From the NCBI GenBank assembly GCA_028532765.1, contig JAQQAR010000067.1:1-48003 (forward strand): DNA of 48,003 nt, in the 5' to 3' direction. The stretch is from Sphaerochaetaceae bacterium. GTDB taxonomy: Bacteria; Spirochaetota; Spirochaetia; Sphaerochaetales; Sphaerochaetaceae. Of this stretch, positions 27,560 to 45,088 are shown piece after piece; within the stretch, counting starts at the first letter, position 1; every line of letters begins with the position of its first letter. The notes under the pieces are model-generated. The model was not told the DNA's origin. It made no database searches and saw nothing but the letters and a program-made list of their open reading frames with translations. The translations under genes and the position numbers were made by a program.

Positions 27560-28546
27560 TCAAATGACAAACTCCTTTCCCTCTTGACTTGAGTGAAGAA
27601 TACCTTCGATTACCTTTACATCACGTACAACATCTTCCTGCCTCACTGATGCTTTTACATTCATAGAAAAAGCACTATAAAAATCCTGCCATTCTAGAAA
27701 AAAACTATCCTCTTTCTCAATCTTGATATTCTGTATTTTCCCATCAGATGAGTATAGTTGAATCTCATTATCACTGACAGACAAAGCCCCAGCAGTGCAG
27801 AACAGTTTCAGAACATCTTCAGGGCAAGCATGCTGTAATGCCATATTAAAGGATGTAACTACCCCGTTCTCATGTGTGAGGATTGCAAAACCCAAATCAT
27901 TTGTGCCAAGTTTTGGATTGATGCTTAACGTACTACCCATTACCTTTGTTACCGGGCCTGCAATCTGTTGGAGTGCATGTACATAATGCACCCCCCCATC
28001 CATGAGATAACCTCCTGAATACTCATTATACTGGCGCCAATGGGTATTATTGAATTTACTGTCCACTTCTGTAAATGAGAAGACATTCATCTGTACAGAA
28101 TGTAATGATCCTATTTGTCCACTCTCTATAATCTCTTTCGCCTTGATAATTGAATTTTTAAAGTGATGGTTCTCAGCTATCATATAGAGAGGTTTTTCAG
28201 AGGAGACAGATTCCATTGTCTTTTCAGCTTCCGCAGCATTGGCTCCTGCAGGCTTCTCACATAGCACTGCAATTCCAGCATCAAGGCAAGCCTTGCTCAC
28301 AGGATAGTTCAACGGTATCGGGAGAGCTATCAATACAGCATCTAAATCCTTCTGCTTCTGCAACATTGTCTCCCAACTAGTAAATATGGGAAGATTTGGA
28401 TTTCCTAAAAGGTCCCTTACAGTAATGGCTTTTCCCTCGCTGTGATTACAGAGGGCAACTACCTCAATTGTATCCTTCAACCTAATCAGTGCCGGAACAT
28501 GAGCTTCTTGGGTGATGATTCCACAACCAATAAGTCCTAACTTCAT
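27560..28546 (-). CDS. Gfo/Idh/MocA-family oxidoreductase
   Basis: The 328-residue protein has the NAD(P)-binding N-terminus KLGLIGCGIITQEAHVPAL and the family's catalytic motif AVLCEKPAGANAAEAEKTM (EKP), followed by DGGVHYVHALQQIAGP. Such enzymes oxidise or epimerise sugars and cyclitols in the cytoplasm. It is the last gene of the leftward LacI-controlled operon, 53 bp after lacI. The EKP Lys and the downstream Asp-His pair are present, so it should be active. Its substrate, presumably a sugar released by the mannosidases, is inferred. Confidence 0.88.
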   Translation of the reverse strand: MKLGLIGCGIITQEAHVPALIRLKDTIEVVALCNHSEGKAITVRDLLGNPNLPIFTSWETMLQKQKDLDAVLIALPIPLNYPVSKACLDAGIAVLCEKPAGANAAEAEKTMESVSSEKPLYMIAENHHFKNSIIKAKEIIESGQIGSLHSVQMNVFSFTEVDSKFNNTHWRQYNEYSGGYLMDGGVHYVHALQQIAGPVTKVMGSTLSINPKLGTNDLGFAILTHENGVVTSFNMALQHACPEDVLKLFCTAGALSVSDNEIQLYSSDGKIQNIKIEKEDSFFLEWQDFYSAFSMNVKASVRQEDVVRDVKVIEGILHSSQEGKEFVI

Positions 28547-28599: not shown

Positions 28600-29589
28600 T
28601 CAAGAAGATTCCCTGACTATGAGTTTCGGCTCCAGCACATGACCAGGAGGATCAATTGCTTTCCCATTTATCAAATCAAGCAAATCCAAAGCTGCAAGTT
28701 TTCCGATATCTTTTATTGATTGAGATACGGTTGTTAGTGGTATTTTGCACAAAGAAGCAAGCTTGATATCATCAAACCCAATAATTGCTACTTGTTCGGG
28801 AATCTTGATTCCCATGTGGGATAGTTGGTGAGATACTCCAATGGCCACATTGTCATTGGTAATAAATAATACTGTCTTCTTCTTGCCGACATGATTTCTG
28901 GCAAGTAACATATTTGAGATTTCCAAACCATCCTCAAAGGTCTTGATACCATTATAACGAATAACACTATCTGAATAGTTCACTTTACTGTAAAACCCTT
29001 CAACACGATTATCCATTGTCTGATGAGAATACCCTGTTATCAAGACAACTTGTTCCTTTTCCAAAGAATTGATATATTCGGCAACAAGTTCTCCTCCTCT
29101 ATAGTTGTTGAAAGCAACATAGTTTAAACTTGAATCTTCGGGAATACAGTTAACCAATACAAAAGGGATATTTGAATGTTTCAGAAGATCAATGGTCTCC
29201 CCTTCGTTATTGATTGGAGCTAAAAGAATTCCATCGACTTGCTTACTGATAAGAGAGGAAACATGATGAAGTTCTTTCTCCTCTATCCATCGAGATGAGT
29301 ACAGTTGAAGGGAATAATCAAAATTACTTAGGATTCGATCAACCCCTTCAACAATCTCAATAAAAAAGCTATTGTAAAGCTCATCAACTATAATTCCAAT
29401 AGTCTTTGTTGAAACGCCAGCAAGCCCTTGAGCCAAATGATTAGGAACAAAAGAATTTTCATTCACAATTTTCATAACAGCATCTCTTGTAGTTTTTTTG
29501 ACCATAGAGGGATTAGACAATACTCTTGAGACTGTTGACTTCGAAACACCGGCAAGCTTGGCAATATCATTAATGGTAATCGGTTTCAT
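28600..29589 (-). CDS. LacI-family transcriptional repressor
   Basis: The 329-residue protein starts MKPITINDIAKLAGVSKSTV, then SRVLSNPSMVKKTTRD, a textbook LacI helix-turn-helix and hinge. The periplasmic-binding-like sensor shows VDGILLAPINNEG, IAIIGFDDIKLAS-type sequence (VAIIGFDDIKLAS) and the C-terminal TTVSQSIKDIGKLA. It lies inside the leftward operon it most likely controls. Two LacI-type operators (35289-35302 and 35462-35475) sit in the divergent control region, giving a simple autoregulated switch for both operons. Confidence 0.92.
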   Translation of the reverse strand: MKPITINDIAKLAGVSKSTVSRVLSNPSMVKKTTRDAVMKIVNENSFVPNHLAQGLAGVSTKTIGIIVDELYNSFFIEIVEGVDRILSNFDYSLQLYSSRWIEEKELHHVSSLISKQVDGILLAPINNEGETIDLLKHSNIPFVLVNCIPEDSSLNYVAFNNYRGGELVAEYINSLEKEQVVLITGYSHQTMDNRVEGFYSKVNYSDSVIRYNGIKTFEDGLEISNMLLARNHVGKKKTVLFITNDNVAIGVSHQLSHMGIKIPEQVAIIGFDDIKLASLCKIPLTTVSQSIKDIGKLAALDLLDLINGKAIDPPGHVLEPKLIVRESS

Positions 29590-29614: not shown

Positions 29615-32026
29615 TTAATAAGATTTTTCAAGTAAATCTGTTTCTCTTATTGTATAGTAATCATCTGAGATAAATATAGACTTAATTTCAAAAGGTTTAA
29701 ACTCAATCGATTCAGATGTATCACCAATAATCAATTTCTCCACATGATGCTCTCCACGTGTTTCAACAGCACGGAAAATCCAACCCTTCCTTGATTCAGC
29801 CTTCTTGAAAGCAGTAACAACCACTCCATCAATATCAAGATCAAGAATCGTCTTGCTCGATGGCAAGATCCCTTTGTGAGTCGACTCCACTAAGGAAATT
29901 GGTTGCTGATTAAACTGAACTGCTTCCTTGGTGAAACAGGAATTCTCTTTTCCATCTTTAATGAGAAACGAACAATTGAAAAAGCCCTGGTCTGTATACC
30001 GATGAAATGATGTGTCCCCAAGCACGGCTGGCTCATGGTGTGCTGCACCTGGGCTACGAAGCAAACCATATTCAAGAGTTGAAAATGACGAACTACAACT
30101 ATAGATGCCATCATTGATTATACCAACATAGGTCCCACCAGACAAACTCTTGGATATCCAGCGTTGACAAGGGTACTCTGTTTTATCACTATTTCTTTTT
30201 ATCCACCCATAGGGGATTTCAGAATAGAATTCTCTTGACTCCTCAGTATCAAATACGAGTTTGAGCATCTTTTGTTTCTCTGCCCAAAAAATATCACATT
30301 TTATTTCAATTGCATTTCGCACGAAATCAACATTCACCCGGAGTTTCAATGTACTGGAACCATACATATAGATGAGTTCATATTCTTCAAAAACAGGACC
30401 TGTAGAGAATACCTTTACATCCGTAATTTGAAGATATGTTCGCATACCATCATAACTGACCAATCCATGGGACCAAGCATCGGAAGGATCGTCTATGACA
30501 ACAGGTCGAATCCCTTTGAGAATAATCTTACCATCCTTTCGAATCTCACCAATCTCTCTCTTCTCAGAATCAAGAGAAACACTTAGGCTTTCATTTCCTA
30601 TGATACGGCTTGGTACCTTCAACTGTCCCAGCGTTGAAAAGTTTTCAGGATCCATTAGCGCATGCACCCCAATAAGTTTCCATGTGGCATATCCCAATGC
30701 AGGAACAGTCAGGGTCACTTTCGTATTATATGCGTAAAACCCGCTCGTAGGGACTGATTTTACAAACTGGAAAGGGATTTCATTTCCCTCTTTATCTATT
30801 ATATTCTCTACAAGACATTCTAGGTTTACAGTTTCAATTACTTCCCATGGGTGGCTGTTCAAAACTAAAAGACACATATCACCATCACTGGTATCCAGTC
30901 CGCTGCCAATTCTCTGGATTATCAGGTTTTCAATTTCTCTTACGTCATTGAGAACATGCCCATATCTATGAATCACACCTGCATGAACAGATGGGGCACA
31001 ACAACCGCCTAAGATATCATGGAATTGATTGAATAGAACCTTTTTCCAATTATCTTCAAACTTCTTGAAATCATAATCCAAATCAACAATATTACCAAAA
31101 GTTGCACTGAACTTTTCGGCCCTTAGGAGCCTATTCTCACATTGATTATTAAGATACTTGATGTCGGCCATGAGTGAATAACAACCTATTGCATGATGTT
31201 GCAGTTCGCCTTGGTATTCTGGAATTCTGATATCCTTTTTAGCAATGTAATCAAAGTAATCCCTCGTTGACCCGTGAACAATTGGGACCTCTGTTTCATT
31301 GCTGGAAATTGCATGATGAAGAACCTCAAGATTTTCCTTTGTTGGGCCACCTCCGTGGTTACCGATACCGAAAAAACACATTACAGGTTTTTCCTCTGTT
31401 TCTGATAGCTGAATAATCTCATTCAGTTTTTTTATGAGTTTTGTTCCCCATGCATCAACTGCAGTGTAGCTTATTGGCACTCTAGAAGCAGTGACCGATG
31501 TACCATCAATACCCTTCCATTTAAAAAGAAACTCTTTATTCTCTCTACACTCTTCTGGCGATGGTCTCATAAACACATAGGAATCCATATTCTGTTTACT
31601 GAGAATCTGAGGAAGGTTGGCATTATGTCCAAAAGAATCAACATTGTAGCCAGAAGTAGCCATAACACCAAAATGCTCCAGAAAGAATTGTTGGGCATAG
31701 AGACCTTGTCTAACAAAGGATTCACCGCTAGGGGCGTTGCAATCAGGCTGTAGGTACCAACCACCAACAATATGCCAGCGTCCGCTTTTCACTGCTATTT
31801 TTATTTCCTGAAAAAGGGAAGGATCACTATTGAGTACCATCTCATAATGAGCTGAACTAGCACTACTAAACACATGCTCTTTATATTCATTTATTCTATC
31901 GATAGCAGATCTGAATGTTGCACGTACCTCTTGAAAACCATCTTCATAGTCCCAAAGCCAACAAATATCCAGATGCGCATTACCTATAAGATATACAGCT
32001 GATTTTGTGTTCTCTTTTCTATTCAT
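29615..32026 (-). CDS. GH38 alpha-mannosidase-like glycoside hydrolase (first)
   Basis: The 803-residue protein (start ATG 32026, AAAGGA 8 bases upstream; longer in-frame starts exist at 32032 and 32062) belongs to glycoside hydrolase family 38. The zinc ligands are in NAHLDICWLW near residue 18, and GGWYLQPDCNAPSGES precedes the nucleophile Asp of YNVDSFGHNANLPQIL (about residue 130). The C-terminal half is the usual beta-sandwich. There is no signal peptide, so it cuts imported alpha-mannosides in the cytoplasm. It lies between the ABC permease and lacI genes. It is about 200 residues shorter than the second GH38 at 41018 and lacks that protein's N-terminal extension; the two probably cut different linkages. 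Confidence 0.9.
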   Translation of the reverse strand: MNRKENTKSAVYLIGNAHLDICWLWDYEDGFQEVRATFRSAIDRINEYKEHVFSSASSAHYEMVLNSDPSLFQEIKIAVKSGRWHIVGGWYLQPDCNAPSGESFVRQGLYAQQFFLEHFGVMATSGYNVDSFGHNANLPQILSKQNMDSYVFMRPSPEECRENKEFLFKWKGIDGTSVTASRVPISYTAVDAWGTKLIKKLNEIIQLSETEEKPVMCFFGIGNHGGGPTKENLEVLHHAISSNETEVPIVHGSTRDYFDYIAKKDIRIPEYQGELQHHAIGCYSLMADIKYLNNQCENRLLRAEKFSATFGNIVDLDYDFKKFEDNWKKVLFNQFHDILGGCCAPSVHAGVIHRYGHVLNDVREIENLIIQRIGSGLDTSDGDMCLLVLNSHPWEVIETVNLECLVENIIDKEGNEIPFQFVKSVPTSGFYAYNTKVTLTVPALGYATWKLIGVHALMDPENFSTLGQLKVPSRIIGNESLSVSLDSEKREIGEIRKDGKIILKGIRPVVIDDPSDAWSHGLVSYDGMRTYLQITDVKVFSTGPVFEEYELIYMYGSSTLKLRVNVDFVRNAIEIKCDIFWAEKQKMLKLVFDTEESREFYSEIPYGWIKRNSDKTEYPCQRWISKSLSGGTYVGIINDGIYSCSSSFSTLEYGLLRSPGAAHHEPAVLGDTSFHRYTDQGFFNCSFLIKDGKENSCFTKEAVQFNQQPISLVESTHKGILPSSKTILDLDIDGVVVTAFKKAESRKGWIFRAVETRGEHHVEKLIIGDTSESIEFKPFEIKSIFISDDYYTIRETDLLEKSY

Positions 32027-32093
32027 CCTCATTTTCCTTTTATGACTATTGCCCACTAACAATGTTATAATTTTCTAATGCCGAAAACTCATA

Positions 32094-32939
32094 TCAACCT
32101 TTGACTGCTCCACTCATCATGGCAGAGATAATGAACTTCTGTAAAAAGATAACTATGAGTATTGCTGGCAACAATCCCAAAACACTGGCGGCTGCCAGAT
32201 TCTGAATGGTGATATCCATAAACATCCCCTGAACCGTAAGAATACCAACAGAGACTGGGCGCATTTTATCTTGACTCAACAAAATGAATGGAAGCAAAAA
32301 AGATGACCAAGCATTAATTGAAAGAAAAATAATAGTACTGGAAACGCCTGACTTGGAACAAGGAAGAATTATCCTCGTCAGTATAGTAAATCTATTCGCT
32401 CCATCTATAGAGGCGGACTCATCCATAGCTTTAGGGATACTATCGAAAACTCCTTTCAATAGATAGGTAGCGAACGGAGTCTGTGTTGCAACATATACAA
32501 GACCGAGTACCCAGTATTGATTTAACAATCCAACGTTCGAAAGGAACCGAAACAAAGGAATACAAATTACTACATCACTTATCATCTGAAACATTAAAAT
32601 CGAAATGACGACTAGACTTTTATTCTTGAAATTAAATCTTGAAAGACCGTAGGCTGAAAGGGATGAAACAGTCAATGTTCCGACAACGGTGTACAAAACT
32701 AATATTAGGGAGTTCTTAATATACGTGGGCATTTTAGTTCGATTCCATACAAATGCATAGTTTTCTAATGTAGGTGATTTGGGAATGAGACTAGGGTTTC
32801 CAAATATTTCAGCTGGAGTTTTCAGTGAAATGGAAATGATACAAAGGATAGGGAATAAGAAAAAAGCAATGGTTATCATATAAAACAGATAAACCAAAAT
32901 ATCTGATTTCCTTTGTAAAAGCTTTGATTTCCTATCCAT
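32094..32939 (-). CDS. ABC sugar transporter permease, MalG/LacG type
   Basis: The 281-residue membrane protein has six hydrophobic segments and the EAA-loop signature DESASIDGANRFTILTRIILP. The start ATG 32939 lies 1 bp past the upstream permease stop, with GGGGAG 7 bases away. The annotated-length alternative at 32960 overlaps the upstream gene. It works with the MalF-type permease and the binding protein in the same operon. No ATPase gene is present here; a shared MsmK/UgpC-like ATPase elsewhere is the usual solution (inferred). Confidence 0.9.
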   Translation of the reverse strand: MDRKSKLLQRKSDILVYLFYMITIAFFLFPILCIISISLKTPAEIFGNPSLIPKSPTLENYAFVWNRTKMPTYIKNSLILVLYTVVGTLTVSSLSAYGLSRFNFKNKSLVVISILMFQMISDVVICIPLFRFLSNVGLLNQYWVLGLVYVATQTPFATYLLKGVFDSIPKAMDESASIDGANRFTILTRIILPCSKSGVSSTIIFLSINAWSSFLLPFILLSQDKMRPVSVGILTVQGMFMDITIQNLAAASVLGLLPAILIVIFLQKFIISAMMSGAVKG

Positions 32940-32940
32940 T

Positions 32941-33834
32941 TCATTTCTCCCCTTTTTCATTCATGAGTTTTATATATATCGAAGTCAGTATTACTGATAC
33001 AAATAAAAGGATAATAGCATACACACTACCTCTCCCAAGATTGAGATAGGTAAAAACAGATTTATAGGTCATCAAAGGAAGAACTGTTGTGCTATTCCCA
33101 GGGCCTCCACGGGTGAGGGAGTAGATTGAATCGTAAGTATTGATAGAATAGATTGAAATCAATACAAGGTTAATGAGAAGCATAGGCTTCAGTTGTGGTA
33201 AAGTGATATGAGCAAACACTTGCCTTGAGCTTGCTCCATCGAGACGTGCAGACTCAAATAACTCTGGTGGTATTGATTTGATTGCAGAATATTGCATTAT
33301 TCCGCTAAATCCAGTACCCCTCCAGATGTTTGCGATTAGAGCACTCATCAGAGCAAGCCAAGGGATTGAAAGGAATGAGACGGTAGTACCTCCCAACGCC
33401 TTGATAAAATTATTGAATACTCCCCAACTCGCACTACTATACAACATCTGCCAAACGACACCGGTTATTACACCTGGAACTACCCAAGCAATTGTCATAG
33501 AGAGCTTAACCAAACCCGCCCCTCTAAGATCCTTGTTAATCAGCATAGCTACGGCAAGACCTATCCCAAGCTGAAAAAAAACAGAACCCAATGCAAAAAT
33601 CAATGTAATTCTTAATGAATCCCATAGTTCTTTGTCAGCAAACACAGAACGATATGAATCCAAAGAATAGTTGAATGTGGGTTTCCCAATTCTGATATTT
33701 GTGAAGCTCATTCTAATAACATTCAAAACAGGATAAAGGTATATCATGCCTAACAGAAGAAACATTGGGACAAGCCACAACCACCACCTACTAGTTATCC
33801 CTTCACCTTTTCTCTTTACCTTTTGCTTATTCAT
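32941..33834 (-). CDS. ABC sugar transporter permease, MalF/LacF type
   Basis: The 297-residue membrane protein has six hydrophobic segments and the EAA loop ELFESARLDGASSRQVFAHITLPQL. The MalF-type N-terminus WWLWLVPMFLLLGMIYLYPVLNVIRMSF is clear. It follows the binding-protein gene after 82 bp containing a hairpin and is followed by the second permease at 1 bp. It forms the membrane channel for a mannoside-type sugar. Confidence 0.9.
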   Translation of the reverse strand: MNKQKVKRKGEGITSRWWLWLVPMFLLLGMIYLYPVLNVIRMSFTNIRIGKPTFNYSLDSYRSVFADKELWDSLRITLIFALGSVFFQLGIGLAVAMLINKDLRGAGLVKLSMTIAWVVPGVITGVVWQMLYSSASWGVFNNFIKALGGTTVSFLSIPWLALMSALIANIWRGTGFSGIMQYSAIKSIPPELFESARLDGASSRQVFAHITLPQLKPMLLINLVLISIYSINTYDSIYSLTRGGPGNSTTVLPLMTYKSVFTYLNLGRGSVYAIILLFVSVILTSIYIKLMNEKGEK

Positions 33835-33916: not shown

Positions 33917-35260
33917 TTATTTTTTCCATTCTTCCCATTCTTTTAAGGCATCTTGCTGTAACTGATCAACGGCCTGAGTAGGAGTAAGTTCCCCAATGAG
34001 TACTTTCCCGAGCATCTTTGCGTTCAAGTCAGAAATTGCAGGATACAATGAAGAGGCTGGTCTTGAATGCCCAATCTCAAACTGTTCAAGAAATCTGACC
34101 ATATCTGGATCATTCTTAAAATACTCATGCTCGAAAACATCAGTCCTAACAGGAATTTGGCCATGAGCAATACAACGTGCAGCCATTGCTTCTTTACTAC
34201 CAATGACATCCATCAAGAAAGAAACTGCTGCTTTTTTCTTTTCAATGTTATCTGTTAGCACAGCCCAAGTCCAACCACCACAAGTATTAGAAAACTGATC
34301 AGCCTCAGCCATTGGAAGGAATGTATAATCCCATACTGAAGAATCTTCTACAATTTCAGCAACCTGGCTTACAGCCCAAGTACCATGAATGAACATTGCA
34401 ACATTATTTGCCGCAACTTCAGCCAAAATTGGATCAAAACCTGTCATACTTGCAATATCAATAGGAGCGGCACCTGAATCGATGAGTCTCTTCTGAAATG
34501 AGTAGACGTCAATCAACTTCTGGCGATTCTCACCTTCTCCAAGTACTGGCCGGGAATTCTCACCGAAAATTTCTCCCCCTTGTCCCCAGAAGTATGGCCA
34601 CGTACCCTCATTAGATGCTGCTTCAGACATGCCTGACGGTGTAAGGAAACCATGCATTCCTGTCTCTCTACTAACCTGTGTTGCAATTTCAATAAGTTCA
34701 TCCCATGTTCTTGGGGGAGTTGGAATCAAATCTTTACGATAGAACAAGAGGCGTGCATCTGTCTCACCCCACAATGCATATTGCTTACCATCACGAACCG
34801 TAATCTCTTTGGTCCAATCAAAGAAAGGATCAAGATCGTCTTGAGGAATAAATTCATTTAATGGTTGAAGAACTCCAGCATCAAGGAATGTTCCAACAAA
34901 AAATGAATCAAGATGGATAACGTCAGGGGCTACACCCAACTCAGCTTCTGTCAGAAATTTGCTCATTTCAACAGCAATCTGTGATGCATCAACATACAAT
35001 ATCTCAACACCATATTGAGGATTTGCATTAGCCCATGCAGTCTGTGTCTTGAGGGCCCATTCCCTTCTCTCAGGATAGGTGCTGGCAACAGAGTTATCTT
35101 TGTACATAGCAACAGTGATAACAGTCTCTGCATTAAGATTACCAATATAATCCTCATTCACTACAATCTCTGGTTTTTTTGCTTCTGATGAACCGCTTGC
35201 AAAAACCAAGAACCCGACACACATTAGCACTAATGCTAATACTAATCTTTTTCTTTTCAT
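33917..35260 (-). CDS. ABC sugar-binding protein (extracellular solute-binding family 1)
   Basis: The 447-residue exported protein has signal sequence MKRKRLVLALVLMCVGFLVF followed by ASGSSEAKKP; there is no lipobox Cys. Mature-domain signatures are DVIHLDSFFVGTFLDAGVLQPLNEF, YALWGETDARLLFYRKDL and TPPRTWDELIEIATQ, all typical of maltose/sn-glycerol-3-P type binding proteins. It is the first gene of the leftward operon, next to a LacI operator at 35289-35302. It should bind the glycan fragment later cut by the GH38 enzymes. Confidence 0.92.
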   Translation of the reverse strand: MKRKRLVLALVLMCVGFLVFASGSSEAKKPEIVVNEDYIGNLNAETVITVAMYKDNSVASTYPERREWALKTQTAWANANPQYGVEILYVDASQIAVEMSKFLTEAELGVAPDVIHLDSFFVGTFLDAGVLQPLNEFIPQDDLDPFFDWTKEITVRDGKQYALWGETDARLLFYRKDLIPTPPRTWDELIEIATQVSRETGMHGFLTPSGMSEAASNEGTWPYFWGQGGEIFGENSRPVLGEGENRQKLIDVYSFQKRLIDSGAAPIDIASMTGFDPILAEVAANNVAMFIHGTWAVSQVAEIVEDSSVWDYTFLPMAEADQFSNTCGGWTWAVLTDNIEKKKAAVSFLMDVIGSKEAMAARCIAHGQIPVRTDVFEHEYFKNDPDMVRFLEQFEIGHSRPASSLYPAISDLNAKMLGKVLIGELTPTQAVDQLQQDALKEWEEWKK

Positions 35261-35288: not shown

Positions 35289-35302
35289 TGAAACCGGTTG
35301 TA
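35289..35302. promoter_or_regulatory. LacI-type operator (left)
   Basis: TGAAACCGGTTGTA is a near-perfect palindrome with the central CG-containing core typical of LacI/CcpA-type sites. It lies 29 bp upstream of the binding-protein start and can block the leftward operon. Confidence 0.7.
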
Positions 35303-35461: not shown

Positions 35462-35475
35462 TGAAAACGGTTGCA
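35462..35475. promoter_or_regulatory. LacI-type operator (right)
   Basis: TGAAAACGGTTGCA matches the left operator at 11 of 14 positions and lies 38 bp before the kinase-HAD start codon. The two sites are 173 bp apart, which would allow looping by a LacI tetramer or independent control of each operon. Confidence 0.7.
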
Positions 35476-35512: not shown

Positions 35513-37405
35513 ATGAGCGATAATACCCTTTCGAATCGTATTGATTCTATCTCAACAAATATTAGAAATTGTTCTGTTGCAATACTTGGTGATGTTTGTC
35601 TTGACCAATATTCTTTCATCGATTCTTCGATTTCTGAGATTTCAGCTGAAACAGGATTGAAAACAATATCAATCAAATCAGAAAAGCTTAGATTAGGAGG
35701 CGCATCTAATGTTGCCCTTAGCTGCAAAATTCTGGGAATTCCCAAAGTAGATATATATGGTGTCGTTGGAAACGACTATCAAGCAAATATTATTAGAGAT
35801 AAATTTCGCAATAATCAAATCGGAATAGAAGGGCTTATTACTCAAGACAAACATTGGAATACCCATGTATATCATAAAATAGTCCAGGTTAGGAAAGAGA
35901 TAAATCGATATGACCTCGGCAACTTCAACCATCCATCAAAGAAGACAGCCGATATTATATTAACAAAACTTAATGAGAATATTAGCAAATACCAATGTGT
36001 CATCATCAATGAACAAGTTATGAATGGGATACATAACGAATATTTCATATCCAAATTAAATGAAATAATCAAAAACAATTCTGAAAGCATTATCTGGATT
36101 GTTGATACCAGACATTTACTCGGCAGATACGAGAATGTAATTTATAAATTCAATAAAATTGAAGCAGCTACTTATTGTTCACATATATGTGAAAAAGAAC
36201 AATCTACCGTGGAATATGGCAAACTACTCAGCACAAGATGGAAGATGCCGGTGATTATTACCTGCGGCGAAGATGGGGCTATAGTTTGCACTAGCAAGTC
36301 TACCCATATTATCGATGGTATTGATTTCTTCCAAGAAATTGACCCAGTAGGGGCAGGCGATGCATTCCTTGCAGGAACCGCAGCAGCCATTCTTTCTGGA
36401 GAGGATATTAAAAATGCAGCAGAAATTGGAAATCTCACTGCCGCTGTCAGCGTATTAACGCTATTTGAGACGGGCCATCCAACACTGGAGGAACTAAAAG
36501 TCCATTCCCAGAATCTACTTTGGAGACATAATGCACATCTGGCCAAGTCTTTTCCTCGGTATCTCCCAGAAACACAAATAGAAATTATCGATCCTTCTTT
36601 TACACTGGGAAGAGCACTCCCAAAGATTGCGATTTTTGACCACGATGGTACCATCTCCACATTTCGTCAGGGATGGGAATCTGTTATGCAACAAGTAATG
36701 ATGCAGTATCTGATAGGTGATGCTGAGATTTCTGTACAGGAAAGAACTAATCTAGAATTGAAGGTTAAAGACCTCATAGACAAATCTACTGGTATTCAAA
36801 CCATAACCCAGATGAAGTATTTCGTTGAGATGGTTAATAAGGAGGGTCTGGTTCCTTCAATCGAAATCTTGTCGGCCGAAAACTATAAAAAGATTTATCT
36901 TGATGAGCTTATGAAAACCATGGAGCATAAGTTTAAGGCTCTGAAGAATGAGGAATTGAATGTAGAAGACTTCACCATAAAAGCATCGGTAAAGTTTCTT
37001 GAAAGGCTATACGAGAACGGTACAATTCTCTATATGGCTAGTGGTACTGATAGGGATGATGTCAGAAATGAAGCAAACATTCTTGGGTATAGCAAACTAT
37101 TTGAAGGTCGAATCTTTGGATCTGTCGGTAATGACGAAGAGGATCCAAAAAAACTGGTGATGCAACAAATAATTCATGATATTGAAAAATCTGGATATTC
37201 ACCGGAAGAATGTGCTGTTTTTGGAGATGGCCCTGTAGAAATGAGAGAAGGCTCAAAATATGGTTTTGAAACCATAGGGATAGTAAGTGATGAAAAACAA
37301 AGATTCGGTATAAACCCAACAAAGAGAGCGCGCCTCATCCTTGCTGGTGCTCATGTATTGATTCCGGATTTTTCACAAATTTCCAGCATCTACCCAGAGG
37401 AATAG
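35513..37405 (+). CDS. Fused PfkB-type sugar kinase (HldE domain-1-like) and HAD phosphatase
   Basis: The 630-residue protein joins two enzymes. Residues about 15-330 form a PfkB kinase most like the heptose-7-phosphate kinase half of HldE: VAILGDVCLDQY, RLGGASNVALS (61-70) and the catalytic DPVGAGDAF (277-285). Residues about 370-600 form a HAD hydrolase: FDHDGT (375-380, nucleophile D376 and D378), YMASGTD (507-513) and FGDGPVEMREG (570-580). All catalytic motifs are intact. HldE normally carries a nucleotidyltransferase as its second domain; here a phosphatase takes that place. It is first in the rightward LacI-controlled operon. A GmhA-like isomerase lies downstream, so kinase, phosphatase and isomerase for a C1/C7-type phospho-sugar are together. 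The true substrate is unknown. Confidence 0.85.
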   Translation: MSDNTLSNRIDSISTNIRNCSVAILGDVCLDQYSFIDSSISEISAETGLKTISIKSEKLRLGGASNVALSCKILGIPKVDIYGVVGNDYQANIIRDKFRNNQIGIEGLITQDKHWNTHVYHKIVQVRKEINRYDLGNFNHPSKKTADIILTKLNENISKYQCVIINEQVMNGIHNEYFISKLNEIIKNNSESIIWIVDTRHLLGRYENVIYKFNKIEAATYCSHICEKEQSTVEYGKLLSTRWKMPVIITCGEDGAIVCTSKSTHIIDGIDFFQEIDPVGAGDAFLAGTAAAILSGEDIKNAAEIGNLTAAVSVLTLFETGHPTLEELKVHSQNLLWRHNAHLAKSFPRYLPETQIEIIDPSFTLGRALPKIAIFDHDGTISTFRQGWESVMQQVMMQYLIGDAEISVQERTNLELKVKDLIDKSTGIQTITQMKYFVEMVNKEGLVPSIEILSAENYKKIYLDELMKTMEHKFKALKNEELNVEDFTIKASVKFLERLYENGTILYMASGTDRDDVRNEANILGYSKLFEGRIFGSVGNDEEDPKKLVMQQIIHDIEKSGYSPEECAVFGDGPVEMREGSKYGFETIGIVSDEKQRFGINPTKRARLILAGAHVLIPDFSQISSIYPEE

Positions 37406-37409
37406 TTAT

Positions 37410-37523
37410 ATGAATTTCCCACAGTTTTCACGTAAAAATATGAAATACTACCCTCTTGCTTCCAGACGGAGTTACGTTAGCATCAAGGAAGATCATATCG
37501 ATCCTTCAACGTATACCCCATAA
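37410..37523 (+). pseudogene. 5' end of the deoxyhypusine-synthase-like gene, ended by in-frame TAA
   Basis: An ATG 4 bp after the kinase-HAD stop, with GAGGA about 10 bases upstream, opens 37 codons (MNFPQFSRKNMKYYPLAS to STYTP) ending at TAA 37521-37523. The same frame continues directly after the stop as LSQEVNSRIKTIAKELMKSR into the gene at 37572. The segment KYYPLASRRSYVS resembles the expected N-terminus of that protein's family, so this looks like one gene split by a nonsense change. Confidence 0.7.
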
Positions 37524-37571
37524 CTCTCACAGGAGGTAAATAGCCGGATCAAGACGATAGCGAAGGAATTA

Positions 37572-38510
37572 ATGAAATCGCGAGAAAATGGTTCTTCACG
37601 AATGTGTGTATTCGGCGCACATACCATTAAAAATGGGTTAGGACTTACTCTTGCAGAGTTAATCAAAGAAGGTTGGTTCACCCATCTTGCAACCAATGGT
37701 GCAGGAATTATCCATGATTGGGAGTTCGCATTTCTTGGATGTAGCAGTGAAGATGTATCTACAAACGTAAAGGCTGGTAGATTTGGGACCTGGGAAGAGA
37801 CAGGACTCTATATTAATTTGGCGTTAGTAGTTGGTGCATTCGAGGGGCTGGGTTATGGGGAATCTGTAGGCAAGATGATTTCCCAGGATTTCTTGGAGAT
37901 TCCATCAAAAGAAGAGCTAGAAGAAATACTATGTAACAAGAATATCTTGCTTTCCAAAAGAGCAGCCGCCGCAGACCTACTCTATGAAATAGAAAGATTG
38001 GGTATACCGAGCAGTAGATATTCAATCAAACATCCATACAAAAAATATAGCATCCAAAGTGCATGTTATGAGAAAGGAGTTCCTTTCACAGGTCATCCTA
38101 TGTTTGGACATGATATTATCTATACTCATAAAGCTAATCTCGGCTCAGCGATAGGAAGGACAGCAGAAACCGATTTTCTCAGATATGTCAACTCGGTATC
38201 AAACCTAGAGGGAGGGGTTTATTTATCGATCGGCTCAGCCGTCATGTCACCTATGATATTCGAAAAGGCCTTGTCTATGTCCCGGAACATACTGCATCAA
38301 AATGATAAAGATATCAAAGATTGCGGGATACATGTCTCCGATCTACAGCAACAGACTTGGGATTGGAGCAGAGGTGAACCCCCTATGGACAATGCAGCAT
38401 ATTATCTCCGATTTATGAAATCATTTAGCCGAATGGGTTGTCGTGTCGATTATACATCAACAGACAACAGAGATTTTCTTGTAGGGCTGTATCAGGAATT
38501 AAACGCATGA
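37572..38510 (+). CDS. Deoxyhypusine-synthase-like protein of unknown function (N-terminally broken)
   Basis: The 312-residue frame shows FGAHTIKNGLGLTLAELIKEG, ATNGAGIIHDWEFAFLGCSSEDV, TGHPMFGHDIIYTHKANLG and GGVYLSIGSAVMSPMIFEKALSMSRN. This series fits an uncharacterised bacterial family with the Rossmann-like fold of deoxyhypusine synthase; I base this on remembered family patterns, not a search. Translation would have to restart at ATG 37572 (AAGGA just upstream), because the frame is interrupted by TAA at 37521. It overlaps the epimerase gene by 4 bp. Similar proteins would be expected to bind NAD or a nucleotide-like ligand. The role in a sugar operon is unknown. Confidence 0.7.
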   Translation: MKSRENGSSRMCVFGAHTIKNGLGLTLAELIKEGWFTHLATNGAGIIHDWEFAFLGCSSEDVSTNVKAGRFGTWEETGLYINLALVVGAFEGLGYGESVGKMISQDFLEIPSKEELEEILCNKNILLSKRAAAADLLYEIERLGIPSSRYSIKHPYKKYSIQSACYEKGVPFTGHPMFGHDIIYTHKANLGSAIGRTAETDFLRYVNSVSNLEGGVYLSIGSAVMSPMIFEKALSMSRNILHQNDKDIKDCGIHVSDLQQQTWDWSRGEPPMDNAAYYLRFMKSFSRMGCRVDYTSTDNRDFLVGLYQELNA

Positions 38511-39388
38511 TGTATAAAATCGGATCCAATCAACTCACTGTCGTGATTGACAGCCTAGGATGCCAACTCAAACGAATCACATCCCCAGAGATGAAAGAGT
38601 ATCTATGGACTGGAGATCCTGCAGTTTGGGAGGATTCAGCTCCATTGCTTTTTCCTTTTATTGGAAGATTACAAAACCAGAAATACATATATGACAATAA
38701 AGAGTATCCAGCCACAATCCACGGATTCATTTCCAAGAGAGAGTTCACGCTTGTCAAACAAGAACAGGAGATGTTAGTGATGAGCTTTCGTTCAACAAAA
38801 GAAGATAATGAACTATATATCTTTCCATTCGAATTAATGGTCACGTTCATCATTGCAAACAACTCATTGACCATTTCCTTCGAAGTGCGAAATATTGGAA
38901 CCTCTACAATGCATTTTGGCATTGGTTTTCACCCTGGGTTCAATGTTCCACTCTCACCAATAAGCAATCTGGTCTTCAAGGATTATTACCTACAATTCCA
39001 ACATCCAGCGATCACGGAACTCCACATGGAGAAAAATTGCCTCTATTCAGGGAAAGACACAAGCAGACAGCTCGAACACAACAACAGCTTAGCTCTGAGA
39101 CATGATTTGTTTGATAATGATGCGTTAATTTTCAAGAATTGGGGTTCCTCTGTCAGTTTGAAGGAAATCACAGAATCACAGGAAATAAGAATTGAAACAA
39201 ATGACTTTCCTTATCTCACCATATGGCACCATCCACATACACAAGATCCATTTATTTGCATCGAACCTTGCACTTCGTTCCCTGGGATGAATAAAAAAAT
39301 TGTTCATATAGCAGAAAAAGAAGATTACATTCATCTTGCTGCAAGCGAAACATACTCAACAAAAATATTGATAACATTTAGAGGATAG
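38507..39388 (+). CDS. Aldose 1-epimerase family protein
   Basis: The 293-residue protein has SAPLLFPFIGRLQNQKYIY and TIHGFISKREFTLV (conserved Arg and His of mutarotases), HFGIGFHPGFNVPL (catalytic His) and CIEPCTSFPGM (catalytic Glu). It interconverts alpha and beta anomers, feeding the sugar kinases. Start is the first of two adjacent ATGs at 38507, overlapping the upstream stop (ATGA), with AGGAA upstream; the frame also extends to 38438 but without a ribosome site. Confidence 0.88.
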   Translation: MMYKIGSNQLTVVIDSLGCQLKRITSPEMKEYLWTGDPAVWEDSAPLLFPFIGRLQNQKYIYDNKEYPATIHGFISKREFTLVKQEQEMLVMSFRSTKEDNELYIFPFELMVTFIIANNSLTISFEVRNIGTSTMHFGIGFHPGFNVPLSPISNLVFKDYYLQFQHPAITELHMEKNCLYSGKDTSRQLEHNNSLALRHDLFDNDALIFKNWGSSVSLKEITESQEIRIETNDFPYLTIWHHPHTQDPFICIEPCTSFPGMNKKIVHIAEKEDYIHLAASETYSTKILITFRG

Positions 39389-39393
39389 ATAAG

Positions 39394-40356
39394 ATGGAAA
39401 AATATTACCTGGGGCTAGATATTGGAGGAACTAAATGTTCAGCTGTACTTGCAAGTATTAAAAAAGGGACAAATTGTATTACTATTGTTTCAAGATTTGA
39501 AATACCAACAGCTGATTACTCTTATTTGGATACAATTAACTTATTACTCAACCATTGTATAATGATGCAAGAAATGAATAATGTAAAAGCCATTTCATTG
39601 GGTATTTCCTGTGGAGGACCTCTTGATGTTGATAAAGGGCTTATTTTATCACCTCCAAATCTTGTAGGGTGGGAGAAGGTACCTATCGTTCAATTATGCA
39701 AAGACCGACTTTCTATACCTGTATATTTACAAAATGATGCAAATGCCGGTGCTATGGCCGAATTTCTGTTTGGAGCAGGACAAGGTTGCCAGAACATGAT
39801 ATTTCTCACCTTTGGGACAGGCCTTGGAGCAGGTTTGATTCTCAACGGAAGGTTATATACAGGTGCATCGAACATGGCAGGTGAAATAGGACACGTCAGA
39901 CTGACAGAAGATGGACCTGAAGGATATGGGAAAAAAGGATCTGTGGAAGGATACTGCTCCGGAAGCGGAATTGCCAAGCTTGGCCGAATTATGCGTGAAA
40001 AAAGCAATGAAAAAACAGACTTGGCACAGATAAAAACACTATCAGCTAAAAATATTGCACATGCTGCTGAGAATGGAGATCCTTTATCGATTGCCATATA
40101 CAAGGAGTCTGGAAAACGATTAGGTCAGACTCTTTCAATCCTGATAGACATTCTTAATCCTGAAAAAATCATAATCGGTGGAGTCTTCGTGAAATCTAGG
40201 AATCTATTCATCTCAGTAATGGAGGAAGTAATTAAGCAAGAAGCCTTGGACTGCTCTGCATCTCATTGTCAGATAGTTCCAGCTAGGCTTGGAAATCAAA
40301 TTGGAGATTATGCATCAATCGCCATCGCTATCAAAGGAGAATTTGATGGAGTATAA
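39394..40356 (+). CDS. ROK-family sugar kinase
   Basis: The 320-residue kinase has the ATP-binding N-terminus YLGLDIGGTKCSAVL and the acceptor region LQNDANAGAMAEFLFGAG with the catalytic Asp, followed by GTGLGAGLILNGRLYTGASNMAGEIGHVRL. The usual ROK zinc motif CxCGxxGCxE is replaced by YGKKGSVEGYCSGSG, keeping only one Cys, as seen in a subset of the family. It phosphorylates a hexose such as glucose, mannose or fructose. It follows the epimerase after 5 bp and overlaps the SIS gene by 11 bp. Confidence 0.88.
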   Translation: MEKYYLGLDIGGTKCSAVLASIKKGTNCITIVSRFEIPTADYSYLDTINLLLNHCIMMQEMNNVKAISLGISCGGPLDVDKGLILSPPNLVGWEKVPIVQLCKDRLSIPVYLQNDANAGAMAEFLFGAGQGCQNMIFLTFGTGLGAGLILNGRLYTGASNMAGEIGHVRLTEDGPEGYGKKGSVEGYCSGSGIAKLGRIMREKSNEKTDLAQIKTLSAKNIAHAAENGDPLSIAIYKESGKRLGQTLSILIDILNPEKIIIGGVFVKSRNLFISVMEEVIKQEALDCSASHCQIVPARLGNQIGDYASIAIAIKGEFDGV

Positions 40357-40942
40357 GCTAATACAAGAACTGATAACTCGAATTCCTGAATTAGAGCAGT
40401 GCGAACTATCAATTGTACAGGCTTTTGAGATACTTAAGGCCACATATCGAAATACAGGAAAAGTACTGTGTTGCGGTAATGGAGGATCGGCTGCTGACTG
40501 TGAGCATATTGTTGGGGAATTGATGAAAGGATTTCTTCTCCCAAGAGAAGTAATCACACAATCTTTTCCAGATAGAAAACTACAGAATGGACTACCCGCA
40601 ATTTCACTTGTAAGCCATTCTGCCCTCATCAGTGCAATTGCAAATGATATTGGAGCTGATATGGTGTATGCACAACAGGTAATTGGCTATGGGAATGAGA
40701 AGGACTGCATGATAGGTATAACAACTTCAGGTAATTCAACCAACATCATAAATGCAATGAAGATAGCAAAAGAACGCAAACTGAATACTATTGGAATGAC
40801 TGGTAAACACGGAGGCTTATTAAAAAACATCTGTGACTGTTGCATCTGCGTTCCCTCAACAGAAACCTTTAGGATTCAAGAATACCATCTACCAATATAC
40901 CACACGCTTTGTGCGATGGTAGAAGCATATTTCTTCATGTAA
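40346..40942 (+). CDS. SIS-domain phosphosugar isomerase, GmhA-like
   Basis: The 198-residue protein from ATG 40346 (AAAGGAG 6 bases upstream; the open frame begins earlier at 40289) has KVLCCGNGGSAADCEHIVGEL, GITTSGNSTNIINAMKIAKERK and EYHLPIYHTLCAMVE, the phosphosugar site of the GmhA/DiaA family. GmhA converts sedoheptulose-7-phosphate to a heptose phosphate, but other SIS proteins act on different phospho-sugars. It lies in the operon with an HldE-like kinase and HAD phosphatase, which suggests a connected path. Confidence 0.85.
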   Translation: MEYKLIQELITRIPELEQCELSIVQAFEILKATYRNTGKVLCCGNGGSAADCEHIVGELMKGFLLPREVITQSFPDRKLQNGLPAISLVSHSALISAIANDIGADMVYAQQVIGYGNEKDCMIGITTSGNSTNIINAMKIAKERKLNTIGMTGKHGGLLKNICDCCICVPSTETFRIQEYHLPIYHTLCAMVEAYFFM

Positions 40943-41017: not shown

Positions 41018-44000
41018 ATGATTAGAAACATCTATAACTTAGACAGAATTGAAAAACAAATAATGAATTTTACAGAACTTAGATATCTTAATCGTCGAGA
41101 AATCACTGAATTTAGAACAGCAACAGACGATGGAAGCATTGTTAATCCTAAACCAAAAGATTCAGCTCTCTTTACAGGTGATCTAAAAATCAATGATTAT
41201 TGGCATGGTAGAGACAAATACCTGTGGATTAAATTTGTGTTTACTATCCCACAAGATTGGAAAGGAAAGACTATTGTTGGCAAGTTTGACTTCGGTAGAA
41301 CGGGGATGGGAAACAACAGCGGCTTTGAATCACTACTCTACCTCAATGACACGCCTTACCAAGCAGTAGATTCAAACCACGAAGAAGTATTCATTAATTC
41401 AGAAGAGTATGAGGATAATATTGAGTTTAAATTTAGGCTCTGGAGCGGCCTCGAGGGGGGTGGGCCTGAGATTATTCAAACCTACCAGTTCAAGACAGCG
41501 TTCGTCTCATTGTTCTCTACTGACACAGATGATTATTATTATTTGATGTCTCACTGCATCTCCACTGCAAGAAGGCTTCCCCCCTCAGTTGCATTAAAAT
41601 ATAAACTTGAAGATTGCATTGTTTCTTCTTATAACATTGTTGATTTCACGAACCAGGAGAGCTTAGCGTTCCATGAGTCTGTCTCGGCTGCCTTGAAGCA
41701 CTTGCAAGACAAGCTTGCATCCTTTGATGATAAGACAGACTATACGGTTACCTGTATAGGGCATTCACACATCGACCTTGCATGGCTTTGGAGATATAAA
41801 CATACAAGAGAAAAAGGTGTCAGATCTTTCAATACAGTGAATCGCATGCTAGAACAACATCCTGAATACCTTTTCATGCAATCATCTCCTCAGCTTTATT
41901 CATCAATCAAAGAAGATGCTCCAGAACTATATGCAAAAATCACCCGTTGGGTACAAGAAAATCGTTGGGAAGCCTCAGGGGCGATGTGGGTTGAGGCAGA
42001 TTGCAACATCCCTAACGGAGAATCACTTGCGAGACAACTTTTGTATGGAAAAAAATACTTCAAAGAAGAATTTGGCATAAGTAGCAACTATTTATGGCTA
42101 CCTGATGTATTTGGATATTCGTATGCATTGCCACAGTTATTAAAATCTGCAGGAATCGATAATTTCATTACCACTAAAATCAGTTGGAATGACATGAACA
42201 GAATGCCTCACGATACGTTCTTGTGGAAGGGCCTTGATGGATCAGAGGTAATTACTCATTTCATTACAACACCAGAAGTCACAGCTGATGTTTCATTCTA
42301 TACGTATAATGGAATGATAACGTCGGAGACTGTTACAGGAGTCTGGGAAAACTATAAAGACAAGGCGCTTAACTCCAACATGCTCATCTGTTATGGATAT
42401 GGCGATGGAGGTGGTGGACCAACCAGGGATATGGTAAAATCTATCGAGAGTATCAAAAAAATTCCAGGACTCCCTGCTGTAAAGACTGGATTTGTACAGG
42501 ATTACCTAGACGAGCTAAATGCTACAGTCAATGAAAATGGTGAAGCTGTAGCGGTGTGGGATGGAGAGCTTTACTTCGAGCTTCACAGAGGTACCTATAC
42601 ATCTCAAGCTAGGATCAAGAAAACAAACCGTCAATTGGAACTTAAATATCGTGATGCCGAGATTTTCAGCACCTTAAGAGCAATCCAAGAACATAACATG
42701 AATGCTTACCCTGCTTGTGAATTGGAGAAGGGCTGGAAACTGATTCTTAAGAACCAATTTCATGACATTATTCCTGGCTCTTCCATCAAAGAAGTCTATA
42801 TGGACTCCGCGATTGAGCACCAAGAGGCAGACAAAATTGCTGAGGCTGCAATCCTGGGAGCTACCCAGGCATTGGTAGAAAGTGACGAAGATTTCACAGT
42901 ATTCAACACATTCTCAAAAAGTAGAAAAGGTTTGGTTAAAGTTGATGAAAAGCATTCAATACAAAACGGTTTCGCTTTGGTAGAGATTCAACCGTTTTCC
43001 CAGAATTCTCTTGAATCAATTATCTGCAGAGAGACTGAATTTGGGTCAATTGTATACATGGATAATTGTATTGAAACAGACCACTTGAGAGTTTGCTGGA
43101 ATGAAAAAGGACATCTTATTTCAGTATTTTTCAAAAAAGTGAATAGAGAGGTACTCTCATCAGAGGCAAACCTTCTGGAAATTTGTGAGGACCGCCCAAG
43201 AGCCTATGACACTTGGGAATTGGAGCCTACGCTTGTGATGAAGCAGGACATAATATCAGACCTGGTATCAGCCGAACTGATCGATGAAGGCCCACTGTTC
43301 ATCAAGTTTAAATTTACTTGGAAGTACAATAAAAGTACAATAAACCAGATTCTTATAGTTTACTCCTTTTCATCACGTATTGATTTTGTCACTGAAGTCG
43401 ATTGGCATGAGAAGCAGAAAACCCTTAGAACAGCTTTTCCAGTGAATATACGATCTCTAACTGCCAGATATGACATTCAATTTGGAAATATTGAGCGTCC
43501 TACTATCAAGAATACAAGCTGGGATGAAGCAAAATTTGAGACAATTGGACATCAATGGGCAGATTTCTCAGAAAGAGGATTTGGTGTTGCGCTACTGAAT
43601 GATTGTAAATATGGGTATGATATACATGGGAATGTGATACGACTATCTCTGCTGAAATCAGCCGAGAATCCAGACACTTTGGCAGAGGAAGGACGGCATA
43701 CTTTCACATATTCACTCTATCCTCATTCACGTGAATGGTACGATAGCGAATTACAGACAGAAGCATGGGACCTTAACTCACCATTGTTTGCTGTAAGAGG
43801 AAGTCTTCACAAGGATTTGCCATCTTTCAAATTTGATTGCAAAAACACCATGATCGATGCAATCAAGAAGAGCGAGAATAATGATGGTTTTGTTATTAGA
43901 TTGCACGAAAACACTGGGGGCCATGACTCTATTGTAATTGAACTCCCTGAATGTTTTGCTTCTTGGACGCAGACAAATCTTTTGGAGGAACCAATTATAT

Positions 44001-44077
44001 CTTTGCAAAATAGTACTCTTATAAAATATACGCTCAGACCATATGAGATTGTTAATTTTTTAGTTAAATTGAAATAG
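41018..44077 (+). CDS. GH38 alpha-mannosidase (second)
   Basis: The 1019-residue protein is of full GH38 length. An N-terminal beta-domain (about 1-235) precedes the catalytic domain: HSHIDLAWLWRY (249-260, zinc ligands H251 and D253), ASGAMWVEADCNIPNGES (319-336), and the nucleophile D363 in LWLPDVFGYSYALPQ. The substrate loop GYGDGGGGPTRDM is present. The C-terminal part is the all-beta mannosidase domain. There is no signal peptide, so it acts in the cytoplasm on imported oligosaccharides. It is the last gene of the rightward operon, 75 bp after the SIS gene, with only a weak ribosome site. Confidence 0.93.
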   Translation: MIRNIYNLDRIEKQIMNFTELRYLNRREITEFRTATDDGSIVNPKPKDSALFTGDLKINDYWHGRDKYLWIKFVFTIPQDWKGKTIVGKFDFGRTGMGNNSGFESLLYLNDTPYQAVDSNHEEVFINSEEYEDNIEFKFRLWSGLEGGGPEIIQTYQFKTAFVSLFSTDTDDYYYLMSHCISTARRLPPSVALKYKLEDCIVSSYNIVDFTNQESLAFHESVSAALKHLQDKLASFDDKTDYTVTCIGHSHIDLAWLWRYKHTREKGVRSFNTVNRMLEQHPEYLFMQSSPQLYSSIKEDAPELYAKITRWVQENRWEASGAMWVEADCNIPNGESLARQLLYGKKYFKEEFGISSNYLWLPDVFGYSYALPQLLKSAGIDNFITTKISWNDMNRMPHDTFLWKGLDGSEVITHFITTPEVTADVSFYTYNGMITSETVTGVWENYKDKALNSNMLICYGYGDGGGGPTRDMVKSIESIKKIPGLPAVKTGFVQDYLDELNATVNENGEAVAVWDGELYFELHRGTYTSQARIKKTNRQLELKYRDAEIFSTLRAIQEHNMNAYPACELEKGWKLILKNQFHDIIPGSSIKEVYMDSAIEHQEADKIAEAAILGATQALVESDEDFTVFNTFSKSRKGLVKVDEKHSIQNGFALVEIQPFSQNSLESIICRETEFGSIVYMDNCIETDHLRVCWNEKGHLISVFFKKVNREVLSSEANLLEICEDRPRAYDTWELEPTLVMKQDIISDLVSAELIDEGPLFIKFKFTWKYNKSTINQILIVYSFSSRIDFVTEVDWHEKQKTLRTAFPVNIRSLTARYDIQFGNIERPTIKNTSWDEAKFETIGHQWADFSERGFGVALLNDCKYGYDIHGNVIRLSLLKSAENPDTLAEEGRHTFTYSLYPHSREWYDSELQTEAWDLNSPLFAVRGSLHKDLPSFKFDCKNTMIDAIKKSENNDGFVIRLHENTGGHDSIVIELPECFASWTQTNLLEEPIISLQNSTLIKYTLRPYEIVNFLVKLK

Positions 44078-44494: not shown

Positions 44495-45088
44495 ATGAAT
44501 TACTTGGAGAAACTTGAAGAGCTCATACAAAAACACTATGGCACGATTCTAAGTGCTGATCTCGATAAAAACCAGATTCCAAGAGGGTATCTCCAGATGA
44601 TGGTGGCAGAAGGAACCCTTGAGAGAGTTAATCGAGGTGTTTATGTTTCCGTTAATTCAATCGAAGATGAAATGTATGCTTTGCAGACGAAATACCCAAA
44701 TATTATCTATTCTCATGAAACGGCACTTTTTATGCATGGCTTATCGGACAGAACTCCTTTCAAGTACTCAGTAACAGTTCCAAGTGGGCATAAAGTGGTT
44801 GGTGACGTAGCGGAAAGATGTAAAGTTTATTATATAAAAAGAGAGTTTCATGAGATGGGAGCAGAATTGGCAGAAAGCTCCTTTGGTAATCAAATCAGAG
44901 TATATACCATTGAAAGAACCATATGTGATCTCGTACGAAGTAGAAATCGTGTAGATATACAAATCTTTTCTCAAGCATTAACCCGTTTTGCTAAATTAAA
45001 ATCGACAGATTTCTCAACACTCATGGATATGGCAAGAAAACTCAAGATAGAAGCTGTGCTTAGAACATATCTTGAGGTGCTACTGTAA
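44495..45088 (+). CDS. AbiEi-family antitoxin-like regulator, no toxin partner
   Basis: The 197-residue protein has an N-terminal winged helix ending LERVNRGVYVSVNSIEDEMYALQ and a C-terminal domain with IYSHETALFMHGLSDRTPFKYSVTVPSGH, then YTIERTICDLVRSRNRVD. These are the hallmarks of type IV toxin-antitoxin AbiEi antitoxins. In complete systems a nucleotidyltransferase (AbiEii) follows at once; here no such gene lies within the next 230 bp before the SulP gene. It either acts as a solitary regulator, or neutralises a toxin elsewhere. The truncated nucleotidyltransferase at 15485 has its own different partner. Confidence 0.85.
   Translation: MNYLEKLEELIQKHYGTILSADLDKNQIPRGYLQMMVAEGTLERVNRGVYVSVNSIEDEMYALQTKYPNIIYSHETALFMHGLSDRTPFKYSVTVPSGHKVVGDVAERCKVYYIKREFHEMGAELAESSFGNQIRVYTIERTICDLVRSRNRVDIQIFSQALTRFAKLKSTDFSTLMDMARKLKIEAVLRTYLEVLL

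Follow-up and report, generated by a model that had tools for sequence, protein, structure and literature searches.

A conserved fusion of an HldA-like kinase and a HAD phosphatase in a putative alpha-mannoside operon of a Sphaerochaetaceae bacterium

Introduction

A 48,003-nucleotide stretch of Sphaerochaetaceae DNA (hereafter, the window) encodes a single protein in which an HldE-like sugar kinase precedes a HAD hydrolase, raising the question of which conversion such a pair might catalyze in an operon that also carries a GmhA-like isomerase and glycoside hydrolase genes. In Escherichia coli, GmhA is followed by the HldE kinase acting at C1, GmhB acting at C7, the HldE adenylyltransferase, and HldD (PMC10948575). 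Its structure and the genes around it suggest that the fusion would most likely perform the second and third of these steps, the C1 kinase and C7 phosphatase reactions. A conserved bifunctional enzyme of this kind would merge two steps of LPS-heptose synthesis, and it would do so in catabolic operons whose hosts are missing the step that follows. The original prediction held that the HldE kinase is normally fused to a nucleotidyltransferase; this needs qualification, as HldA kinases also occur unfused (PMC10948575).

Architecture and conservation of the fusion protein

The fusion gene and its two domains are located as follows:

35513..37405, + strand: HldA-like PfkB kinase/HAD phosphatase fusion, 630 aa (assigned from the ORF, Pfam, NCBIfam, and a structure model)
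35558..36457, + strand: kinase domain of the RfaE/HldE domain-I type, aa 16-315, base D283 in GAGD
36623..37279, + strand: HAD phosphatase domain, aa 371-589, in which a helical insert is predicted to separate motifs I and II

The reading frame is uninterrupted over all 630 aa, and its AlphaFold model has a mean pLDDT of 93.3. Pfam detects PfkB above cut-off (aa 54-315, 6e-25), as well as Hydrolase/HAD (PF00702; aa 371-577, 2e-8, 35.3 versus a cut-off of 26.4 bits) and HAD_2 (PF13419; aa 374-589, 30.5 versus 23.8 bits); together with the presence of all four HAD motifs, these matches place the C-terminal part in the HAD superfamily. The kinase active-site motif reads DPVGAGD, with D283 as the base, and the HAD motifs are DHDGT (D376/D378), SGTD (S510), K546, and GDGPVE (D572/E576). 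In an alignment of 50 fusion sequences from many phyla, D283, D376, D378, S510, K546, D572, and E576 are invariant. The open frame, the Pfam domains, and full-length homologues elsewhere thus confirm the predicted joining of an HldE-like kinase to a HAD hydrolase, and the conserved motifs support the claim that both active sites are intact. Motif IV, which has the form D-x-x-x-E instead of the commoner D-x-x-x-D, could be read as the mark of a simple sugar kinase whose attached HAD domain is inactive, but the invariance of all HAD catalytic residues, including this glutamate, makes such an arrangement very improbable.

The family is broader than the original prediction recognized. Full-length homologues are present in the window's own genome, in 15 of 59 relatives, and at 80 further loci from Spirochaetes, Bacteroidota, Planctomycetes, Acidobacteria, KSB1, Lentisphaerota, Verrucomicrobiota, Actinomycetota, and others, which rules out chance or mis-assembly as the origin of the fusion. 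In the tree, the window protein pairs with a Treponema sequence (49% identity). For the related loci, gene calls relied on homology and on the length of the ORFs, and BLAST was used for clustering; the many short contigs make the neighbor counts given below lower bounds, and since the genome comparisons rest on draft assemblies, absence may reflect missing sequence. One Sphaerochaeta-group genome encodes a second, shorter homologue (L040:9364-10800), which has the HAD domain and an N-terminal part with no Pfam kinase match.

Relationship to HldA, HldE, and GmhB

Both structure and sequence relate the kinase domain most closely to HldA and HldE. HldA of Burkholderia (B. cenocepacia) ranked first among the Foldseek structures for the fusion and was the closest solved structure in VIA-align (Z 36.0, next family 30.8); the alignment to 4e84 (Z 36.0) has an rmsd of 2.4 over 309 residues, in agreement with an HldA-type fold carrying an intact PfkB motif. 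The top-scoring NCBIfam kinase model was rfaE domain I (TIGR02198; aa 16-315, E 2.6e-36), and the SxE, RxD, NxxE, and GAGD positions of E. coli HldE are all shared (S44/E46, R132-x-D134, N214/E217, and GAGD). The fusion nevertheless differs from HldE in its low identity of about 20%, in a score of 125.3 bits that stays below the TIGR02198 equivalog cut-off of 345 bits, and in having a HAD partner in place of the adenylyltransferase. HldE is reported to phosphorylate heptose 7-phosphate at its anomeric carbon and to accept mannose as well (PMC10948575), so that a mannose-type substrate is conceivable for the fusion as well.

The HAD domain belongs to the same superfamily as GmhB, the heptose 1,7-bisphosphate 7-phosphatase, and is proposed to catalyze the same reaction. 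It differs from GmhB by its predicted helical insert and by its family assignment: the GmhB model TIGR00213 was not among the NCBIfam matches (E 0.01) of 26 HAD domains from the fusion family, and the domain is instead weakly similar to proteins of the HAD-IA and phosphoserine phosphatase types. The Foldseek and VIA-align lists for the whole fusion were filled by kinase matches.

We propose that the kinase domain would convert heptose 7-phosphate to the 1,7-bisphosphate (the HldA step) and that the HAD domain would then remove the distal phosphate to leave a beta-1-phosphate (the GmhB step), with both steps combined in one chain despite the missing GmhB family match. The fusion would thereby probably move a phosphate from the far end of the sugar to its first carbon within a sugar-inducible mannoside operon.

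Gene context and regulation

The fusion gene opens one of two divergent transcription units, fusion/ROK/GmhA/GH38 and ABC/GH38, whose features are:

27560..28546, - strand: Gfo/Idh/MocA oxidoreductase, last gene of the divergent unit
28600..29589, - strand: LacI-family regulator, whose orthologues adjoin the fusion in many Spirochaete loci
29615..32062, - strand: second GH38 alpha-mannosidase-type glycoside hydrolase, divergent unit
32094..33834, - strand: pair of ABC sugar transporter permeases, assigned by their sequence and by comparison with relatives
33917..35260, - strand: ABC solute-binding protein
35289..35302, no strand assigned: LacI-type operator-like site with the sequence TGAAACCGGTTGTA, 29 bp upstream of the binding-protein gene
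35462..35475, no strand assigned: LacI-type operator-like site with the sequence TGAAAACGGTTGCA, about 40-50 bp upstream of the fusion gene
37410..38510, + strand: GSU2086-family gene (NF052581) with a predicted deoxyhypusine synthase/ornithine cyclodeaminase-like NAD fold
38438..39388, + strand: member of the aldose 1-epimerase (mutarotase) family, which probably starts no earlier than the stop of the preceding gene
39394..40356, + strand: ROK family sugar kinase
about 40349..40942, + strand: GmhA-like SIS aldose/ketose phosphate isomerase (the listed ORF starts at 40289)
41018..44077, + strand: GH38 alpha-mannosidase-type glycoside hydrolase

Exactly two copies of the motif TGNAANCGGTTNYA are present in the 48 kb window (0.05 expected), one upstream of the binding-protein gene and one upstream of the fusion; the whole genome has six, with the palindromic site counted on both strands. 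The motif also lies close before the fusion or the binding-protein gene in many Spirochaete loci carrying the LacI gene, and we infer that it is the operator of the window LacI protein. These LacI-type operators, together with the ABC and GH38 genes, support the catabolic setting that had been proposed. The enzyme would belong to an operon of the LacI-type, induced by sugar and serving the use of imported alpha-mannoside-like glycans; in it, the ROK kinase and the GmhA-like isomerase may supply or drain sugar phosphate. Further downstream, at 44495-45088, an ORF resembles an AbiEi-type antitoxin by eye.

The predicted GmhA-like isomerase is indeed encoded in the fusion operon and is the only gene of its kind found in the window genome. 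It scores 150.9 bits (E 2.8e-44) against TIGR00441, below the GmhA equivalog cut-off of 209.45 bits. The residues H53, E57, Q177, and H185, which we take to be the zinc-site residues of GmhA, are invariant among eight sequences, as is the TSGN motif, so that the zinc and phosphate residues are kept.

The GSU2086 partner family

The most tightly linked partner of the fusion, overlooked in the original prediction, is a GSU2086-family gene, which lies near the fusion in 60 of 81 loci, mostly overlapping it or at most 10 bases away. The fusion and an above-cut-off GSU2086 protein were found in the identical 16 of 60 related genomes, which, given this relatedness, do not represent 16 independent events. 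The window protein scores 280.4 bits, above the NF052581 cut-off of 250 bits, and 303 bits over a frame that includes an in-frame TAA at 37521-37523. This frame is otherwise continuous with the homologues; the TAA may be a nonsense mutation or an assembly error. The longest intact ORF spans 37572-38510, and its ATG at 37572 is a possible restart.

In structure predictions, GSU2086 appears to share the fold of NAD-dependent deoxyhypusine synthase and of the AgrE/ArgZ C-terminal domain (ornithine cyclodeaminase), with Z about 18, and weak sequence matches agree with this assignment. The protein may thus bind NAD and would probably catalyze a further NAD-dependent step. The fusion in this way points to an uncharacterized family that is tied to heptose-type genes in several phyla, including in Geobacter, and the gene context makes its function testable. 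We found nothing direct on a kinase-HAD heptose fusion, heptose catabolism, or GSU2086 function in the open-licence literature.

Related modules occur with other architectures. In Geobacter sulfurreducens, hldE, GSU2086, and gmhA carry the consecutive gene numbers GSU2085-2087 (PMC5585712), which resembles the window in bringing together an HldE-type kinase, GSU2086, and GmhA; in contrast to the window, this operon is annotated as one for sugar biosynthesis, and according to the annotation the kinase has an adenylyltransferase rather than a HAD domain as its fusion partner. Searches of plasmids turned up a single fusion-related locus, from Chloroflexota, along with two loci for GSU2086, one in Chloroflexota and one in Solidesulfovibrio. 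On the Chloroflexota plasmid, an ABC transporter is followed by HAD, GSU2086, kinase, and GmhA, all adjacent and each encoded by its own gene. Plasmid pDCAR1 of Solidesulfovibrio carbinolicus likewise has adjacent genes for an RfaE-type kinase, GSU2086, and a GmhA-like SIS protein, but here one protein has the nucleotidyltransferase-kinase order and pseudaminic acid-type genes lie alongside.

Links to ADP-heptose genes and the likely reaction

No HldC/HldE-II-type ADP-heptose nucleotidyltransferase scored above cut-off in any of the 60 genomes searched; the best match in the window genome reached 63.8 versus a cut-off of 181.5 bits, leaving the ADP-heptose pathway incomplete there. The kinase, HAD, and GmhA-like proteins expected for heptose chemistry are present, but the claim that all heptose-type activities except nucleotidyl transfer are encoded was overstated, since HldD is also missing from the operon. 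These catabolic operons contain no nucleotidyltransferase to take up a 1-phosphate, which counts against the proposed reaction.

Six of the 81 fusion loci carry genes for an HldC-type nucleotidyltransferase and an HldD-type epimerase, without GSU2086 and in four cases with GmhA; the pair occurs in none of the 60 GSU2086-type loci, and 15 loci, several on short contigs, have neither. At locus L111, the nucleotidyltransferase scores 180.8 versus the cut-off of 181.5 bits (0.7 under) and HldD 388 versus 274.6 bits; the remaining five pairs were assigned by clustering with the L111 representatives. In the tree, the HldC/HldD context is nested among GSU2086-type loci and requires two or three changes. 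The fusion is the best HldA-like kinase found in the genomes of L089 and L097. A better-scoring HldE-like kinase is present in the other four, which rejects the idea that the fusion is the only HldA-like kinase in all six; GmhB-like matches occur in every one (one above cut-off), and the fusion may therefore share its role with other enzymes in these genomes.

The two-step conversion put forward in the original prediction is supported by HldA as the clearly closest structure and by these six loci, the activity itself being predicted; the regulated cycle offered as its alternative found no support of its own. A cycle or metabolite repair, in which the HAD domain would hydrolyze incorrect or surplus kinase product and the pair would carry out no net two-step conversion, is compatible with a kinase-phosphatase pairing on general enzymological grounds. 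It is improbable in view of the Chloroflexota locus, where a single module encodes HAD and kinase separately alongside GSU2086 and GmhA, and of the six loci with HldC/HldD-type genes, since the reactions known for these begin with the 1-phosphate.

A hexose substrate deserves more weight, although we consider it rather unlikely. Mannose released by GH38 would be phosphorylated by ROK and isomerized by the GmhA-like protein, and the fusion would handle mannose 6-phosphate or beta-mannose 1-phosphate. In 24 of the 60 GSU2086-type loci the fusion has GH38 or GH92 genes nearby, ROK and GmhA pairs also occur in sugar operons without the fusion (one with GH38), and the reported acceptance of mannose by the HldE kinase (PMC10948575) points the same way. 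Against this, the window genome and most relatives have a type I mannose 6-phosphate isomerase match, so that the set is not needed for ordinary mannose, and the fusion is linked to HldC/HldD-type genes elsewhere. The same ManA-type match rules out the GmhA-like protein as the only mannose 6-phosphate isomerase.

We therefore give an even chance to the complete reading, a bifunctional sugar-phosphate kinase/phosphatase that performs HldA-like and then distal-phosphatase steps in a catabolic operon, followed by a GSU2086 step. It draws on HldA as the top structure, RfaE as the top model, the invariant sites, the HldC/HldD linkage, the separate Chloroflexota genes, and the operators; against it stand the score of 125 versus 345 bits, the lack of a GmhB match, and the additional HldE-like and GmhB-like proteins in the HldC/HldD genomes. 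More tentatively, GmhA, the kinase-HAD fusion, and GSU2086 might form a pathway not described so far, in which heptose-type (or mannose-type) sugar phosphates are processed inside alpha-mannoside utilization operons without nucleotide activation, with the deoxyhypusine-synthase-fold enzyme carrying out an NAD-dependent sugar rearrangement or epimerization.

Some loci show further variation. In Treponema (L053, L058, L059, L060, and L062), a 6-phosphogluconate dehydrogenase gene precedes the fusion and a gene for a 341-aa protein, with no match to family models or the PDB, follows GSU2086. In Bacteroidota, two GSU2086-family genes lie side by side at L103, L104, L105, L108, L115, and L090.
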